Origin: Pomacea canaliculata
Lineage: Eukaryota; Mollusca; Gastropoda; Architaenioglossa; Ampullariidae
Direction of reading: 5' to 3'
Assembly (NCBI RefSeq): GCF_003073045.1
Contig: NC_037594.1
Location: forward strand, 34,172,338-34,236,337
Length of the DNA: 64,000 nucleotides
Position numbers and translations under genes: made by a program. Of the stretch, positions 29,301-44,803 are shown in pieces; within the stretch, counting starts at the first letter, position 1, and every line of letters begins with the position of its first letter. The notes below the pieces were generated by a model. It saw only the letters and a program-made list of their open reading frames with translations. It made no database searches and was not told the DNA's origin.

Positions 29301-32300
29301 GCATGGTCTGAGCTGGAGCATCGTTTGCAAGACCCATCCATCCCACCTGAAGACAGTCCCAGAGGAAAGGCATTCAGAGAGGGTAATGATGATGACACTA
29401 TAATGAGATCTCGCAGTATCCTCCAGTTTCCTCGCAGCATCCTCGCGAGATCTCGCAGCATCCCCGAGTTTCCTAGCGAGATCTCGCAGAATCCTCCAGT
29501 TTCCTCTCAGAATCCTCGCGAGATCTCGCAGCATCCCCGCGTTTCCTCGCGAGATCTCGCAGAATCCTCCAGTTTCCTCGCAAGATCTCGCAGCACCCTC
29601 GCGAGATCTCGCAGAATCCTCGCAGCATTCTCGCGAGATCTCGCAGAATCCTCACAGCATCCTCGCATTTCCTCGCAAGATCGAGCAGAATCCTCCAGTT
29701 TCCTCGCAGAATCCTTGCGAGATCTCACAGCATCCTCCAGTCTCGTAGCATCCCCGAGTTTCCTAGGGAGATCCCGCAGAATCCTCCAGTTTCCTCTCAG
29801 AATCCTCGCGAGATCTCGCAGAATCCTCGCGAGATCTCGCAGCATCCTCGCGAGATCTCGCAGCATCCTCGCAAGATCTCGCAGCATCCCCGTGTTTCCT
29901 CGCGAGATCTCACAGCATCCTCCAGTTTCCTCGCAGCATCCTCGCGTTTCCTCGCGAGATCTCGCAGCATCCTCGTGAGATCTCGCAGCAGCCTCGCGTT
30001 TCCTCGCAAGATCAAGCAGAATCCTCCAGTTTCCTCGCGAGATCTCGCAGCAGCCTCGCGAGATCTTGCAGAATATGACCTCATCAAGATGGCCGCCCCA
30101 ACAGTGACTTCCGGCAAGATGGCCGGCCTATGCGACTTCCGGCGGCTGTGACGTCACGGCTCCCCAAAACCCAAATGAGGGGTGAAACGCAGCACCCTCA
30201 CGTTTCCTCGCACAATCCTCGCAAGATCTCGCAGAATCCTTGCGATATCTCTCAGCATCCCCGCAGCATCCTCGCGAGATCTCGCAGCTTCCTCGCAAGA
30301 TCTCGCAGCATCCCCGCAGCCTCCTTTTCTCGCTCTTCTCGCTTTTCTCGCTGTTCTCGCTCTTCTCGCTTTTCTCGCTGTTCTCGCTCTTCTCGCTGTT
30401 CTCGCTTTTCTCGCTGTTCTCGCTCTTCTCGCTCTTCTCGCACTCCTCGCAAGATCTCGCAGCATCCTCGCAGAATCCTCGCAGCATCCTCGCGTTTCCT
30501 CGCGAGATCTCGCAGCATCCTCGCGTTTCCTCGCAAGATCTCGCAGCAGCCTCGCGAGATCTCGCAGAATATGACCTCATCAAGATGGCCGCCCCCACAT
30601 CCGGCAAGATGGCCGGCCTATGCGACTTCCGGCGGCTGTGACGTCACGGTTCCCCAAAATGAGGGGTGAAACGCAGCATCCTCACGTTTCCTCGCAGAAT
30701 CCTCGCGGGATCTTGCAGCATCCCCGCTTTTCCTCACGAGATCTCGCAGCATCCTCGCGAGATCTCGACGCATCCCCGAGTTTCCTAGCGAGATCTCGCA
30801 GAATCCTCCAGTTTCCTCGCGAGATCTCGCAGCATCCTCGCGGGATCTTGCAGCATCCCCGCCTTTCCTCGCGAGATCTCGCAGCATCCCCGCGTTTCCT
30901 CGCGAGATCTCGCAGCATCCTCGCGAGAGCTCGCAGCATCCTCGCAGAATCCTCTCGAGATCTCGCAGCATCCTCGCGAGATCTCGCAGAATCCTCGCGA
31001 GATCTCTCAGCATCCCCGCAGCATCCTCGCGAGATCTCGCAGCTTCCTCACAAGATCTCGCAGCATCCCCGCAGCATCCTTTTCTCGATCTCGCTCTTCT
31101 CGCTGTTCTCGCTCTTCTTGCTGTTCTCGCTGTTCTCGCTGTTCTCGCTCTTCTCGCTTTTCTCGCTCTTCTCGCTCTTCTCGCTTTTCTCGCTCTTCTC
31201 GCTCTTCTTGCTGTTCTCGCTCTTCTCGCTTTTCTCGCTCTTCTCGCACTCCTCGCACTCCTCGCGAGATCTCGCAGCATCCTCGCAAGATCTCGCAGAA
31301 TCCTCGCAGCATCCTCGCAGCATCCTCGCGTTTCCTCGCGAGATCTCGCAGCATCCTCGCGTTTCCTTTCGAGATCTCGCAGCAGCCTAGCGAGATCTCG
31401 CAGAATATGACCTCATCAAGATGGCCGCCCCCACATCCGGCAAGATGGCCGGCCTATGCGACTTCCTCGCGAGATCTCGCAGAATCCTCGCGAGATCTCG
31501 CAGCATCCTCGCGGGAACTTGCAGCATCCCCGCTTTTCCTCGCGAGATCTCGCAGCATCCTCGCGAGATCTCGACGCATCCCCGAGTTTCCTAGTGAGAT
31601 CTCGCAGAATCCTCCAGTTTCCTCGCGAGATCTCGCAGCATCCTCGCGGGATCTTGCAGCATCCCCGCCTTTCCTCGCGAGATCTCGCAGCATCCCCGCG
31701 TTTCCTCGTGAGATCTCGCAGAATCCTCCAGTTTCCTCGCGAGATCTCGCAGTTTCCTCGCGAGATCTCTCAGCATCCCCGCAGCATCCTCGCGAGATCT
31801 CGCAGCATCCCCGCAGCATCCTTTTCTCGCTCTTCTCGCTCTTCTCGCTGTTCTCGCTCTTCTCGCTTTTCTCGCTGTTCTCGTTCTTCTCGCTGTTCCC
31901 GCTCTTCTCGCTTTTCTCGCTGTTCTCGCTCTTCTCGTTCTTCTCGCTGTTCTCGCTCTTCTCGCTGTTCTCGCTCTTCTCGCTTTTCTCGCGAGGGATC
32001 TCTTCTCGCAGCATCCTCCAGTTTCCTCGCAGCATCCTCGCGTTTCCTCGCGAGATCTCGCAGCATACTCGCGAGATCTTGCACCATCCTCGCAGAATTC
32101 TCGCGAGGTCTCGCAGTGTCCTCGCGAGATCTCGCAGCATCATTGCAGGATCTCGCAGCATCCTCGAAGAATCCTCACGAGATCTTGCAGCGTCCTCGCG
32201 AGAGCTCGCAGCATCCTCGCAGAATCCTCTCGAGATCTCGCAGCATCCTCGCGAGATCTCGCAGAATCCTCGCGAGATCTCTCAGCATCCCCGCAGCATC

Positions 32301-35300
32301 CTCGCGAGATCTCGCAGCTTCCTCACAAGATCTCGCAGCATCCCCGCAGCATCCTTTTCTCGATCTCGCTCTTCTCGCTGTTCTCGCTCTTCTCGCTTTT
32401 CTCGCTGTTCTCGCTGTTCTCGCTTTTCTCGCTCTTCTCGCTTTTCTCGCTCTTCTCGCTCTTCTCGCTTTTCTCGCTCTTCTCGCTTTTCTCGCTCTTC
32501 TCGCTCTTCTCGCACTCCTTGCGAGATCTCACAGCATCCTCGCGAGATCTCCCAGAATCCTCGCAGCATCCCTGCGTTTCCTCGCGAGATCTCGCAGCAG
32601 CATCGCGAGATCTCGCAAAATCCTCGCAGCATCCTCGTGAGATCTCGCAGAATCCTCGCGTTTTCCTCGCGAGATCTCGCAGCAGCCTCGCTAGATCTCA
32701 CAGCGGCCTCTCGAGATCTCGCAGAATATGACCTCATCAAGATGGCCGCCCCCAGATCCGGCAAGATGGCCGGCCTATGCGACTTCCGGCGGCTGTGACG
32801 TCACGGCTCCCCAAAATGGCTACCCAAATGAGGGGTGAAACGCAGCATCCTCACGTTTCCTCACAGAATCCTCGCGAGATCTGGCAGCATCCTCGTGGGA
32901 TCTCGTAGCATCCCCGCGTTTCCTCGCGAGATCTCGCAGCATCCTCGCGAGATCTCGCAGCATCCCCGAGTTTCCTAGCGAGATCTCGCAGAATCCTCCA
33001 GTTTCCTCGCAAAATCCTCGCGATGATCTCGCAGCATCCTCGCGAGATCTCTCAGCATCCTCGCGGGATCTCGCAGCATCCCCGTGTTTCCTCACGAGAT
33101 CTCACAGCATCCTCCAGTTTCCTCGCAGCATCCTCGCAGTGTCCTCGCGAGATCTCGCAGAACCCTTGCGAGATCTCGCAGCACCCTCGCGAGATCTCGC
33201 AGCACCCTCGCGAGATCTCGCAGAATCCTCCAGTTTCCTCGCAAGATCTCGAAGCATCCTCGCGGGATCTCGCAGCATCCCTGCGTTTCCTCGCAAGAAC
33301 TCGCAGCAGCCTCGCGAGATCTCGCAGAATCCTCGCAGCATCCTCGCTATCCTCCTACCCAAATGAGGGGTGAAACGCAGCACCCTCACGTTTCCTCGCG
33401 AGATCTCGCAGAATCCTCGCAGAATCCTTGCGCGATCTTGCAGCATCCTCGCGGGATCTCGCAGCATCCCAGCGTTTCCTCGCGAGATCTCACAGCATCC
33501 TCTAGTTTTCTCGCAGCATCCTCGCGAGATCTCGCAGCATCCCCGCGTTTCCTCGCGAGATCTCGCAGCAGCCTCCAGATCTAGCAGAATCCTCGCAGCA
33601 TCCTCGCGAGATCTCGCAGAATCATCGCAGCATCCCCGCGTTTCCTCACAAATTCTTGCAGAATCCTCGCAGAATCTGCGCGAGATCTCGCAGCATCCCC
33701 GCATTTCCTCTTGAGATCTCGCAGAATCCTCCAGTTTCCTCGCGAGATCTCGCAGAATCCTCGCAAGATCTTGCAGCATCCTCGCAAGATCTCGCAGCAT
33801 CCCCGCGATTCCTCGCGAGATCTCGCAGAATCCTCGCGAGATCTCTTAGAATCCTCGCGAGATCTCGAAGCATCCTCGCGAGATCTCGCAGAATATGACC
33901 TCATCAAGATGGCCGCCCCAACAGTGACTTCCGGCAAGATGGCCGGCCTATGCGACTTCCGGGGGCTGTGACGTCACGGCTCCCCGAAACGGCTACCCAA
34001 ATGAGGGGTGAAACGCAGCACCCTCACGTTTCCTCGCGAGATCCCGCAGAATCCTCGCAGAATCCTCGTGAGATCTCGCAGCATCCTCGCGTTTGCTCAC
34101 GCAGATCTCGCAGCATCCTCTAGTTTTCTCGCAGCATCCTCGCGAGATCTCGCAGCATCCCTGCGTTTCCTCGCGAGATCTCGCAGAATCCTCGCAGAAT
34201 CCTTGCGAGATCTCGCAGCATCCTCGCGTTTCCTCGCGAGATCTCACAGCATCCTCCAGTTTCTCGCAGCATTTCCTCGCGAGATCTCGCAGCATCCTCC
34301 AGTTTCTCGCAGCATCCTCGCGAGATCTCGTAGAATCCTCGCGAGATCTCGCAGAATCCTCGCGAGATCTTGCAGAATCCTGCGAGATCTCGAAGCATCC
34401 CTGCGTTTCCTCGCGAGATCTCGCAGAATCCTCGCAGAATCCTCGCGAGATCTCGCAGAATCCTTGCAAGATCTCGCAGCATCCTCGTGGATCTCGCAGC
34501 ATCCCCGTGTTTCCTCGCGAGATCTCGCAGAATCCTCGCGACTCGCAGAATCCTCGCGAGATCTCGCAGCAGCCTCGCGAGATCTCGCAGAATATGACCT
34601 CATTTCCAAATGAGCACCCTCATGTTTCCTCGCGAGATCTCCAGTTTCCTCTCAAGATCTTGCAGCAGCCTCGCGAGATCTCGCAGCAGCCTCGCGAGAT
34701 CTCGCAGAATATGACCTCATCAAGATGGCCGCCCCAACAGTGACTTCCGGCAAGTTGTCCGGCCTATGCGACTTCCGGCGGCTGTGACGTCACGCTCCCC
34801 AAAACGGCTACCCAAATGAGGGGTGAAACGCAGCACACTCACGTTTCCTCGCGAGATCTCGCAGAATCCTCGCCGAATCCTAGCGAGATCTCCAGCATCC
34901 CCGCGTTTCCTCGCGAGATCTCGCAGAATCCTCGCTAGATCTCGCAGCATCCTCGCGAGATCTCACAGAATCCTTGCAAGATCTCGCAGCATCCCCACAT
35001 TTCCTCGTGAGATCTCGCAGAATCCTCCAGTTTCCTCGCGAGATCTCGCAGCACCCTCGCGAAATCTCGCAGAATCTCCGAGATCTCACAGCATCCTCCA
35101 GTTTCCTCGCAGCATCCTCGCGAGATCTCGCAGCATCCCCGCGTTTCCTCGCGAGATCTCGCAGAATCCTCGCAGAATCCTCTCGAGATCTCGCAGAATC
35201 CTCGTGAGATCTCGAAGCATCCTCGCGGGATCTCACAGCATCCCTGCGTTTCCTCACGAGATCTCGCAGCAGCCTCGCGAGATCTCGCAGAGTCTCGCAG

Positions 35301-38300
35301 CATCCTCGCATTTCCTCGTGAGATCTTGCAGCATCCTCGCAAGATCGAGCAGAATCCTCCAGTTTCCTAGCGAGATCTTGCAGCAGCCTCGCGAGATCTC
35401 GCAGAATATGACCTCATCAAGATGGCCGCCCCCACATCCGGCAAGATGGCCGGCCTATGCGACTTCCGGCGGCTGTGACGTCACGGCTCCCCAAAACGGC
35501 TACCCAAATGAGGGGTGAAACGCGAGATCTTGCAGCATCCTCACGAGATCTCGCAGAATCCTCGCGAGATCTCGCAGCATCCTCGCGGGATCTCGCAGAA
35601 ATTGGGAAATTCCCACTTCGACGGATCTTGCGAGATCTTGCAACGAGACCTCGCGCGATCTCGCACAAGATTTTTTGCAGTTGTCTCAAATTGTGTAATT
35701 CGTTTTAGCATACTTGCATGCATTCAGCTCTAAGTTATTTATCAGGTGAGGAAGATATTTTTGGTAGGCTGGATTTACAAATATAATGCAGGCATATAGA
35801 GCTCTGTGTTATTTTGGTAAGCCATTACTGTGATATCTCAAAATTTGGAATTGTTGTGTGCTGAAGAGAGAGAAGGTAGTGGAAGATTGGGGATGGCGGG
35901 GGAAGATAAAAGGCTAATGTAGAGATCGGCAACAGATGCTGGTCTAACAGAAAGTACATCAGCAAAAACTTAAAGCATGACCCCGAAAATCAGGATGCAA
36001 AGGTTTAGGTCAAAGACATAAGTAGCATAGATACTGGCTGATGGGAAATTGTAGAGAAGAGTGAGAGTGCATTGAAAGTTTGTAATTATGGTCTTGAATG
36101 ATTATTTGATCATCAGCACTGAAAGGTCTTCAAGGAATTATCAAAAAAGCACTGCAGCACAGGGAGAAAAATCGACTTGCCAGCAAAGAATCTCTAATTG
36201 TGGACCATATTTTATCTGTCCACAAAGACGAGGATGCTCAGACATCAGACTGCTTGTCCTATCTTGTTTATGGTATCCCAGCAGCTGGCAGTTGTAAGTC
36301 TTCACTATTTCAACTGCTAAAACCTTACATAGTGCTACCGAGATAAATGTTAAAGCTATGTTTGACATTGTACCAGTACTTGCCTTTTGAGGTCATCTTT
36401 TGAATAGCCATATACTTTTATAGATATATCTACTCATAACCCTAATCATATTTTTAATTACCAGCTCTGTGTATCCAGTCAGTGCTATAAAGGTGCTATG
36501 AAATACCAGATTTTGTAGTCCTGGTACATTGTTGTATCAAGTTTACTCCGATTAGCTAGCTTTATTAACTGGGCTTAGCTGTTTATATTAGATGTTATTT
36601 CCCATATTCTGAACAAACCACTTTCATTTGCAAAGTCCAAGCCTTTAAACATCAACATATCTGTGGAAAGAAATAGACCAACTCCATGTACCAGTTTAGA
36701 ACTGTGTTTCACATTTTTTCTCAGATGCATGGCAGTGGCTCTGGGGAACTGAGCGTATGGGTGGAGGTTACACATCAAAGTCTGTACTCTAACCTGACCA
36801 CCCACACTAATATAGACAGAGGATGATAATAATCACAACATTGGCTACAGTTAAAGTAACACCCTACACAGCTCATGAGCCACCACCCCTGCTCTTCCCT
36901 GCTCCACAAGACATATATAATACTTGAGTCAAGAAAAATGGAGTTTATTATAGAACAGACAGATTAAGCACAATATTTATACATTTAAACTGGCTTTTGT
37001 AAGGGTGTCCCAATACCATGAGCTATTCATACTTCCAGAAGCTACACAGTGCTGCCATCTCTTGTTAGATCACCCATCCACTCTCACGCACAGATCCACA
37101 TGCATGCATACACGCACGCACAAAGCAACATCCACTTAACTCTAAGGGTTACCACCACCCTTGCATTGCTGCTCTCCTATTTTATACGTGACATTGATCC
37201 TAAACTTGTGGCAATTCTTCCAAAATAGTTGGTGCCATACAGTTGACAAGCCCTGGTCCTCAGGCAGAAACAGCAAGTTTAGAGTAGACAGTAGACAGTC
37301 ACCACACACCGGTGAACTCGCCTACTGACTGTACACCTTGTACACATCGTCACTCAATCTTCCAAGACAGTGATTACTGCTTAACTGAATTGTAGCTGCA
37401 GCACCCAGTACTAAGTGCCAAAGTGTGCAAAGCTACTAATTGTCACTGAACAAATACTACTCGGATGGGTCAGATTTTCCTGACTAGTATTTTGAAATAT
37501 TCGCAAACATCCAGATTTTCTTTTTTTCTTTGTGAATAGGGAACTTTTCCAGCAGACTTTGCCATTGAACTCCTACCTCTCACAGGTAGCTGAAGTCCTG
37601 TTCTACCTCCATACTCGACAGGATAAACTCTAATATGGCTTAGAAACATACTCCCAATCTTCCATTGGTTGTAGCTTTGACGACATAGTCTTTTTTAAGG
37701 GTAAAAAAGAATTTGACCTATTTATGTACATGGGGTTAGCCGATGGCCAACATGTGGGATCTCAGTTCTCATTAAATGAAAGCAATAATTTATTTAGATT
37801 TTGAAAATTAAAAGCTGATAATGAACAGTGCGTTAGCAAGTGACTGAAAAAACATTTTGCATTTCTCTTGTAGCCTGTCGAGCCTCCGATCAGCTTTCTC
37901 TAAGTAGTCTTTATTTTTTTCCATTTTCATCATGCGCAGTTTAGTGTCGAAAGATATGCAATTCTCATGTCTTTATTAATTCATAATACTTTGTTGTTTG
38001 TGTAGTGCTGACTTGGTGCCTCTACTTTCTTGCAAGCCATCCAACCATTCAAGATAAGCTAAAGCAGGAACTCAGTGGTGCTGGTGATTTCTCTCCCAAA
38101 AGTTTGGAAAAGCTCAGGTATGAGCAGGTATCAGTATTAGATGTCTTTCTATGATATAAAAGGATTATTAGTACTTGTGTAAGTTATATGTATCACTTTT
38201 TACTTGATGTTTTAAGAGAAATATTGGTAAATGTCATATCTTGATGTTAATCAAGAGCATATTACTACCTTCTGTGATATGCTCTAGTGTAATTGTCGAA

Positions 38301-44398: not shown

Positions 44399-44803
44399 TC
44401 TCCTTGTGACGTCACACGCACAGGAAGTGTCTGAGGACATTGCGAAGATTTGACGTCATTTTATTGTATGACGCACTCTGTGTGTCAGGCTTGTAAGGCT
44501 CTGTCTGTCGGAAACTGATGAAAAGACAATTTGAATCTTTTCCATCTTTTCGTGGCAATCAGGTGCAGCACATTCTCGAGGCATGGTTGTCACTATGGAA
44601 ACCACACGTCATAGGGTCACGTGACGGAGAACGAGACTTCGTGGAAGCAAAAAAAGAGTCCCGTGTAATTTCTCTTATTAAACACAACATTCTACTAAAA
44701 ACCTTCAACGTTTTCCACACAAACACACATATAAATAGACGAGATTCAAATGTATCCTACTCTTTACGCCATTCTAAGCAGTTTTATTTTGCCTTTAGAA
44801 TCC
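44399..44803 (-). mobile_element. Dispersed repeat with a broken THAP zinc-finger start, copy 1
   Basis: About 405 bp, highly similar to 61414-61825 in the same orientation. On the minus strand an ATG at 44584 opens MPRECAAPDCHEK, the usual start of a THAP domain (C5, C10). One base out of frame follows KRWKRFKLSFHQFPTDRA, which contains the THAP signature FHxFP. The stretch upstream of the ATG holds the E-box palindrome GTCACGTGAC, and TGACGT sites flank the other end. It looks like the 5' part of a THAP-type gene or DNA transposon (P-element-like), now non-coding. Confidence 0.65.

Follow-up and report, generated by a model that had tools for sequence, protein, structure and literature searches.

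A CpG-rich composite minisatellite, probably built in part from Maverick terminal segments, in a P450 intron of Pomacea canaliculata

The window analysed here is a 64,000-nucleotide stretch of the forward strand of contig NC_037594.1 from the snail Pomacea canaliculata (RefSeq assembly GCF_003073045.1, positions 34,172,338 to 34,236,337), and window coordinates below count from its first letter. At 29404-35668 it contains a composite repeat array of ~6.3 kb that takes up 93% of one intron of a P450 gene. The intron has GT...AG borders, with the array beginning 21 bp past the donor (GT at 29383) and the acceptor AG ending at 36116, and the exon frames, joined by eye, match the Pfam p450 family (E 3.8e-48). 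Four of the P450 exon frames taken alone give nothing convincing in Pfam; the match comes from all frames together. A first-pass annotation had described a ~6.3-kb array of more than 100 copies at 29404..35662 within one intron of a P450 gene, and this description holds, with the end now at 35668 and 158 units counted. The gene name CYP20A1 follows that annotation and is putative, the Pfam match placing the gene in the P450 superfamily. Literature searches found no paper on this array, which is no proof that none exists.

Three components, termed R, T and M, alternate within the array. The R units, 158 non-overlapping matches with at most four mismatches to the 18-mer CCTCGCGAGATCTCGCAG, comprise 64 perfect copies and 94 that deviate from the consensus, and their spacing is uneven (~21, 31 and 52 bp by Tandem Repeats Finder, TRF). 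T blocks, four in number, are runs of the 9-bp repeat TTCTCGCTC. The M module is ~125 bp long; neither it nor the T blocks were reported by the first-pass annotation. Six M copies are long, a seventh is truncated and two more are fragments, and the module matches a segment of Maverick (Polinton) terminal repeats. M carries the array copies of AAGATGGCCG (13), CTTCCGG (nine) and TGACGTCA (six), which are YY1-, ETS- and cAMP response element (CRE)-like words, respectively. Outside the array, TGACGTCA occurs in pairs at 44407/44451 and 61424/61468, 44 bp apart, perhaps as part of another dispersed repeat. The features of the locus are as follows.

29301..29382, + strand: P450 exon upstream of the array (exon frame, Pfam p450)
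29383..36116, + strand: P450 intron, GT...AG, 6,734 bp (splice dinucleotides, exon frames)
29404..35668, + strand: composite minisatellite, R + T + M (word counts, TRF, 158 R units)
30072..30190, + strand: M module 1, Maverick terminal-repeat segment (alignment, 94% over 1-139 to the query module)
30327..30450, + strand: T block of 9-bp repeats (TRF)
30568..30674, + strand: M module 2 (alignment, genome search)
31089..31265, + strand: T block of 9-bp repeats (TRF)
31404..31464, + strand: M module 3, cut off before the CRE-like word (genome search)
31824..31992, + strand: T block of 9-bp repeats (TRF)
32364..32513, + strand: T block of 9-bp repeats (TRF)
32725..32843, + strand: M module 4 (alignment, genome search)
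33355..33378, + strand: M fragment, 3′ end only (AATGAGGGGTGAAACGC at 33362)
33892..34016, + strand: M module 5, the genome-search query (alignment, genome search)
34591..34612, + strand: M fragment, 5′ end only
34708..34831, + strand: M module 6 (alignment, genome search)
35405..35523, + strand: M module 7 (alignment, genome search)
36117..36295, + strand: next P450 exon, beyond the array; its 3′ end is approximate (exon frame, Pfam p450)

The repeat words are confined to the array: CTCGCGAG, CTCGCGAGA and GCGAGATCTCGC occur 89, 87 and 73 times within it and are absent from the remaining 57.7 kb of the window. In 200 first-order Markov sequences of the array, CTCGCGAG is found 2.2 times on average (maximum 7) and GCGAGATCTCGC 0.07 times (maximum 1). 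Blocks within the array have been duplicated recently, with one match of 97.4% identity along 232 bp and another of 96.2% along 342 bp, and both edges of the array pass into unique intron sequence that matches nothing inside it.

The genome searched comprises 440,159,624 bp in 24 contigs, of which C5 contains the window. A 442-bp R query (very common words skipped, three of three candidates scored) hits, besides the array itself, only two small C12 sites. Of the 75 genomic occurrences of the exact 15-mer CTCGCGAGATCTCGC, 65 fall within the array (reversed control, 0). The array is a local, CpG-rich composite minisatellite rather than a genome-wide satellite. That second possibility is rejected, with R near-private to this locus, and the earlier label of satellite is too strong because the repeat is close to single-locus. 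As sources of R, a CGCG-rich satellite on C16 (L087) and a fold-back repeat on C2 (L047) are both absent among the best 40 blastn matches against the array. The latter, at C2:520930, consists of a minisatellite rich in CGAGATC with a long inverted repeat after it, resembling a fold-back element.

M is found far more widely. With one module as query and 40 of 54 candidates scored, so that counts are lower bounds, M has at least 69 matches genome-wide, eight of them in the array. Among those outside, 28 form 14 inverted pairs, whose members are separated by 4.5-14.5 kb and have the 3′ end of M pointing outward; the remainder include two single places and the two C12 sites. The paired elements terminate in CATGCCTATACTACT, of the (AGT)2//(ACT)2 type (ACTACT), in 14 of 14 ends read, and identical 6-bp target duplications accompany all four pairs checked among the 14 (GTCGCC, CTCAAG, GGCGCC and GTTCTC); such ends and 6-bp duplications are described for Mavericks in the accessible part of PMC8097293. 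Pieces of two of the elements match the B-family polymerase domain DNA_pol_B_2 (PF03175, 26.3 bits, cut-off 25.8; L021 on C4), a Pox_A32 packaging ATPase (PF04665, 24.7 bits, cut-off 22.8; L011 on C1) and PC4 (34 bits, cut-off 25), along with an rve integrase match below the Pfam cut-off (26 bits against 32.6, E 1.1e-5; L023 on C1). By their ends, target duplications, and polymerase and ATPase genes, the elements carrying M are assigned to the Mavericks. Array copies of M are 91% identical to the nearest element ends over 120 bp, and additional related tandem copies lie inside the Maverick terminal repeat.

Two of these elements can be described individually. A ~10-kb Maverick on C1 (L011, L023, L024, L010) has ATPase, integrase-like and PC4 frames, and a ~6-kb Maverick on C4 (L021-L022) has a polymerase frame and a zinc-finger frame; with the same ends and different genes, they may be partial elements or a gene-dividing set. 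Two paired ends on C4 (L018/L019) are identical over 653 bp, as expected of a recent insertion.

The C12 sites combine R and M. The array and both of these sites have GGCTACCC in common, at a place where GGCTCCCC stands in 20 of 20 Maverick ends viewed; R would thus have become linked to a piece of a Maverick end on at least one occasion, with later growth of the compound at this locus. The C12 sites themselves were considered as a Maverick element and rejected, as their orientation is the reverse of that in element ends. One of them (L042, 1374-1584) has AAAATA on both sides, a possible 6-bp target duplication that is weak, read by eye and set in AT-rich DNA.

The CpG observed/expected ratio (o/e) is 1.33 in the array. 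On its two sides the gene body has values of 0.33 and 0.25, which rise to 0.77 and 0.74 further out from the gene. A CpG-depleted block (o/e about 0.3) surrounds the P450 gene at 17000-42000, with sharp borders near 17 kb and 41.7 kb. Against the unit consensus, R units show 73 transitions at 948 CpG positions versus 11 at 948 other C/G positions, divided evenly between C>T (37) and G>A (36); the ratio is 6.6 (block bootstrap 4.7-16.0). Internal duplicates of at least 90% identity, which are mutually non-independent pairs and whose inherited variants, as in all the mutation counts, inflate the totals, give CpG transitions in 116 of 1243 columns of R versus 55 of 1776 other C/G columns, with transversions equal (50/1243 and 76/1776), and in 7 of 230 versus 1 of 606 for M. 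Gene-body methylation in invertebrates is expected to deplete CpG (PMC11292947, in the part accessible). The CpG-transition excess, within a CpG-depleted gene body, suggests germline methylation of the array.

Taken together, these observations make it probable that the array is a composite minisatellite of local growth, with a Maverick end fragment and a CTCGC-rich repeat as its starting material, and that it is methylated along with its host gene and mostly silent. Such an origin was not considered in the first-pass annotation. A fragment of a Maverick terminal inverted repeat (M) would have been joined to the CTCGC-rich R, accompanied by its 9-bp relative T. The compound would then have grown in place through repeated duplication of blocks of 0.1-1.3 kb, probably by unequal exchange or replication slippage aided by the palindromic units. 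The array would share the germline methylation of the CpG-depleted, presumably methylated gene body, and is probably removed by normal splicing, itself having little activity.

Several observations weigh against this account. The array has neither an ACTACT terminus next to M nor any genes, its M copies lack the outermost ~19 bp of the Maverick end, and its flanks, inspected by eye, show no clear target duplication. No R unit (at most four mismatches in 18) is present in 14 of 14 Maverick ends scanned, leaving the source of R unexplained. On the side of methylation, the non-independence and inherited variants described above enter here; CpG transversions are also higher in the R-unit count (29 versus 16 of 948), and in T blocks CpG transitions (17/588) are rarer than other C/G transitions (68/833), which argues against uniform CpG decay. 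An o/e of 1.33 is likewise the value that an unmethylated island would give. However, o/e is also higher (0.72 and 0.59) at 25-27 kb of the same CpG-depleted gene, in what by eye is a putative reverse-transcriptase remnant; younger DNA in a methylated gene may thus still be CpG-rich, and the richness of the array is therefore no proof of an unmethylated island.

The array is most likely young and near-single-locus, with multiplied Maverick terminal segments. M corresponds to the terminal segment of elements that finish in AGTAGT/ACTACT and are flanked by 6-bp duplications; the array differs from such ends in having no termini, genes or clear target duplication and in the multiplication of M among R and T, repeats absent from the 14 Maverick ends that were scanned. 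In kind it belongs with the transposon-linked tandem repeats already known, such as the mobile-element-linked repeats of the oyster satellitome, which in the accessible part of PMC8268682 are mostly Helitron-linked, with CgiSat52 labelled DNA/Polinton in a table. Unlike the satellites in that part of the oyster study, the snail repeat consists of one intronic array and two small sites, has short CpG-dense units and carries only the end of an element.

The direction of descent could also be reversed, with Mavericks having taken M from a promoter-like host repeat and the array not being Maverick-derived. The want of R in the 14 scanned Maverick ends would fit this order of events, as would the resemblance of M, with its ETS-, CRE- and YY1-like words, to a host housekeeping promoter. 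We regard it as unlikely, as M occupies the same internal position in both ends of 14 element pairs, further related tandem copies lie within the terminal repeat, and the array and C12 copies are without an element terminus.

A regulatory role for the array is possible because M and R both resemble promoter parts, and the sequence evidence leans against it. In vertebrates, TCTCGCGAGA is the CGCG element of CpG-island promoters associated with BANP (PMC6192621; also the accessible parts of PMC9363121 and PMC10206803). The array shares nine of ten bases with this element, exactly as the first-pass annotation had stated, and contains TCTCG half-sites, 314 on both strands, at 50 per kb versus 1.6 outside. 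Unlike vertebrate BANP/CGCG promoters, the array is intronic and shows CpG decay, and 85 of its 87 CTCGCGAGA sites have a CCT flank, with C at position 1; exact TCTCGCGAGA is found once in the array and in the window, at 29629..29638 (+). CCT-type flanks lowered CGCG-element reporter activity in human cells, and activity rose with copy number (PMC6192621). The same source, in the part accessible, reports that methylation abolished promoter activity of the element and that Kaiso in human lysate bound it only when methylated. According to the accessible text of PMC10206803, the BANP BEN domain in vitro prefers TCTCG and binds methylated and unmethylated sites similarly; methylation-dependent BANP binding in cells is cited in that of PMC9363121. 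The scan for the BANP motif thus supports the likeness in bases and half-sites, but with one exact site and the CCT flank the BANP reading of the array is weakened on sequence grounds.

Genome-wide, exact TCTCGCGAGA has 741 places, against 114 for its reversed-word control, and is 5.5-fold commoner than the matched palindrome CCTCGCGAGG (134 places, control 57). The CCT form CCTCGCGAGA has 258 and 206 strand-places (464), ~85 of which are in the array, leaving ~190 per strand outside. The exact element is therefore in genome-wide excess, whereas the CCT-flanked form of the array is close to background. Some of the 741 places fall in satellites, and the scaffold-end repeat at C16:164500-167567 (L087), CGCG-rich like the array, differs from it in a 143-152-bp period and in keeping the exact motif, with 15 copies of TCTCGCGAGA in 3,068 bp. 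Among the first 50 places listed, which all lie on C1, no two are closer than 2,242 bp. On the same contig, 19 motif windows do not differ clearly from 20 control windows in CpG o/e (medians 0.81 and 0.71, p = 0.07); a twentieth motif window (L089) was left out of the comparison while its control was kept, and values below 0.55 are found in 5 of 20 control windows and 0 of 19 motif windows. One BEN-domain match in the genome exceeds the cut-off (C14:18434176-18434406, 38.4 bits, cut-off 23.2); compared with solved structures, this protein matched no BANP structure, the best hit being a phage protein (E 0.51). From the excess of TCTCGCGAGA and the BEN match, a BANP element working in a mollusc is possible.

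The promoter or enhancer function proposed in the first-pass annotation can be framed as an intragenic cluster in which a BANP-like BEN protein acts on CTCGCGAGA and TCTCG, and ETS, CRE and YY1 factors act on M, yielding an alternative or antisense P450 transcript. The density of half-sites, given the TCTCG preference of the BANP BEN domain, the copy-number dependence of reporter activity, the ETS-, CRE- and YY1-like words of M, the BEN protein and the genomic excess of TCTCGCGAGA would all agree with this. The single exact site, the flank that is weak in the reporter assay, the CpG decay of the array and C1 motif windows that are not clearly apart from controls make it quite unlikely. In an extended form, which we consider decidedly improbable, Maverick ends would carry a copy of the ETS, YY1 and CRE grammar of host housekeeping promoters; the array would be an amplified, methylation-gated promoter cluster within the P450 gene, silent while methylated and able, upon erosion of gene-body methylation, to start sense or antisense transcription and to draw BANP- or Kaiso-type factors.

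Conversely, the methylated CGCG sites could serve as a sink, where a methyl-CpG reader, for instance a zinc-finger protein of the Kaiso type, would gather and dampen intragenic initiation or slow the polymerase. The germline-methylation signature of the array and the methylation-dependent binding of Kaiso in human lysate (PMC6192621, accessible part) agree with such a sink, but the array is a single locus and we consider the idea very unlikely.

Action through RNA, with hairpins of the palindromic units beside the 5′ splice site altering splicing or causing intron retention, is equally improbable. The segment 29375-29600 folds at -71.7 kcal/mol (z -3.94, 200 shuffles), and the upstream exon frame stays open past the donor for 225 codons into the array (window 29301-29978). 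Palindromic repeats, however, fold well irrespective of role, and the open frame results from the stop-less R unit. If the intron were retained, this frame (window 29301-29978) would give an RS-rich peptide. A coding array was also considered and rejected: frames are open for up to 669 codons stop to stop, and these are compositional because the R unit is without stop codons on both strands.

Long tandem repeats are frequently misassembled, but a collapsed or invented repeat is extremely unlikely here given the heterogeneity of the copies (only 64 of the 158 units are perfect), the irregular block order and the passage of both array edges into unique intron sequence.

The array, a composite minisatellite that probably arose from a Maverick end fragment, would show, in a form that can be dated, how the terminal repeat of a Maverick becomes a minisatellite within an intron. 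It would also serve as a natural test of how a CpG-dense, promoter-like repeat behaves inside a methylated invertebrate gene body. Separately, the genome-wide excess of TCTCGCGAGA together with a BEN protein makes the function of BANP elements in molluscs testable.

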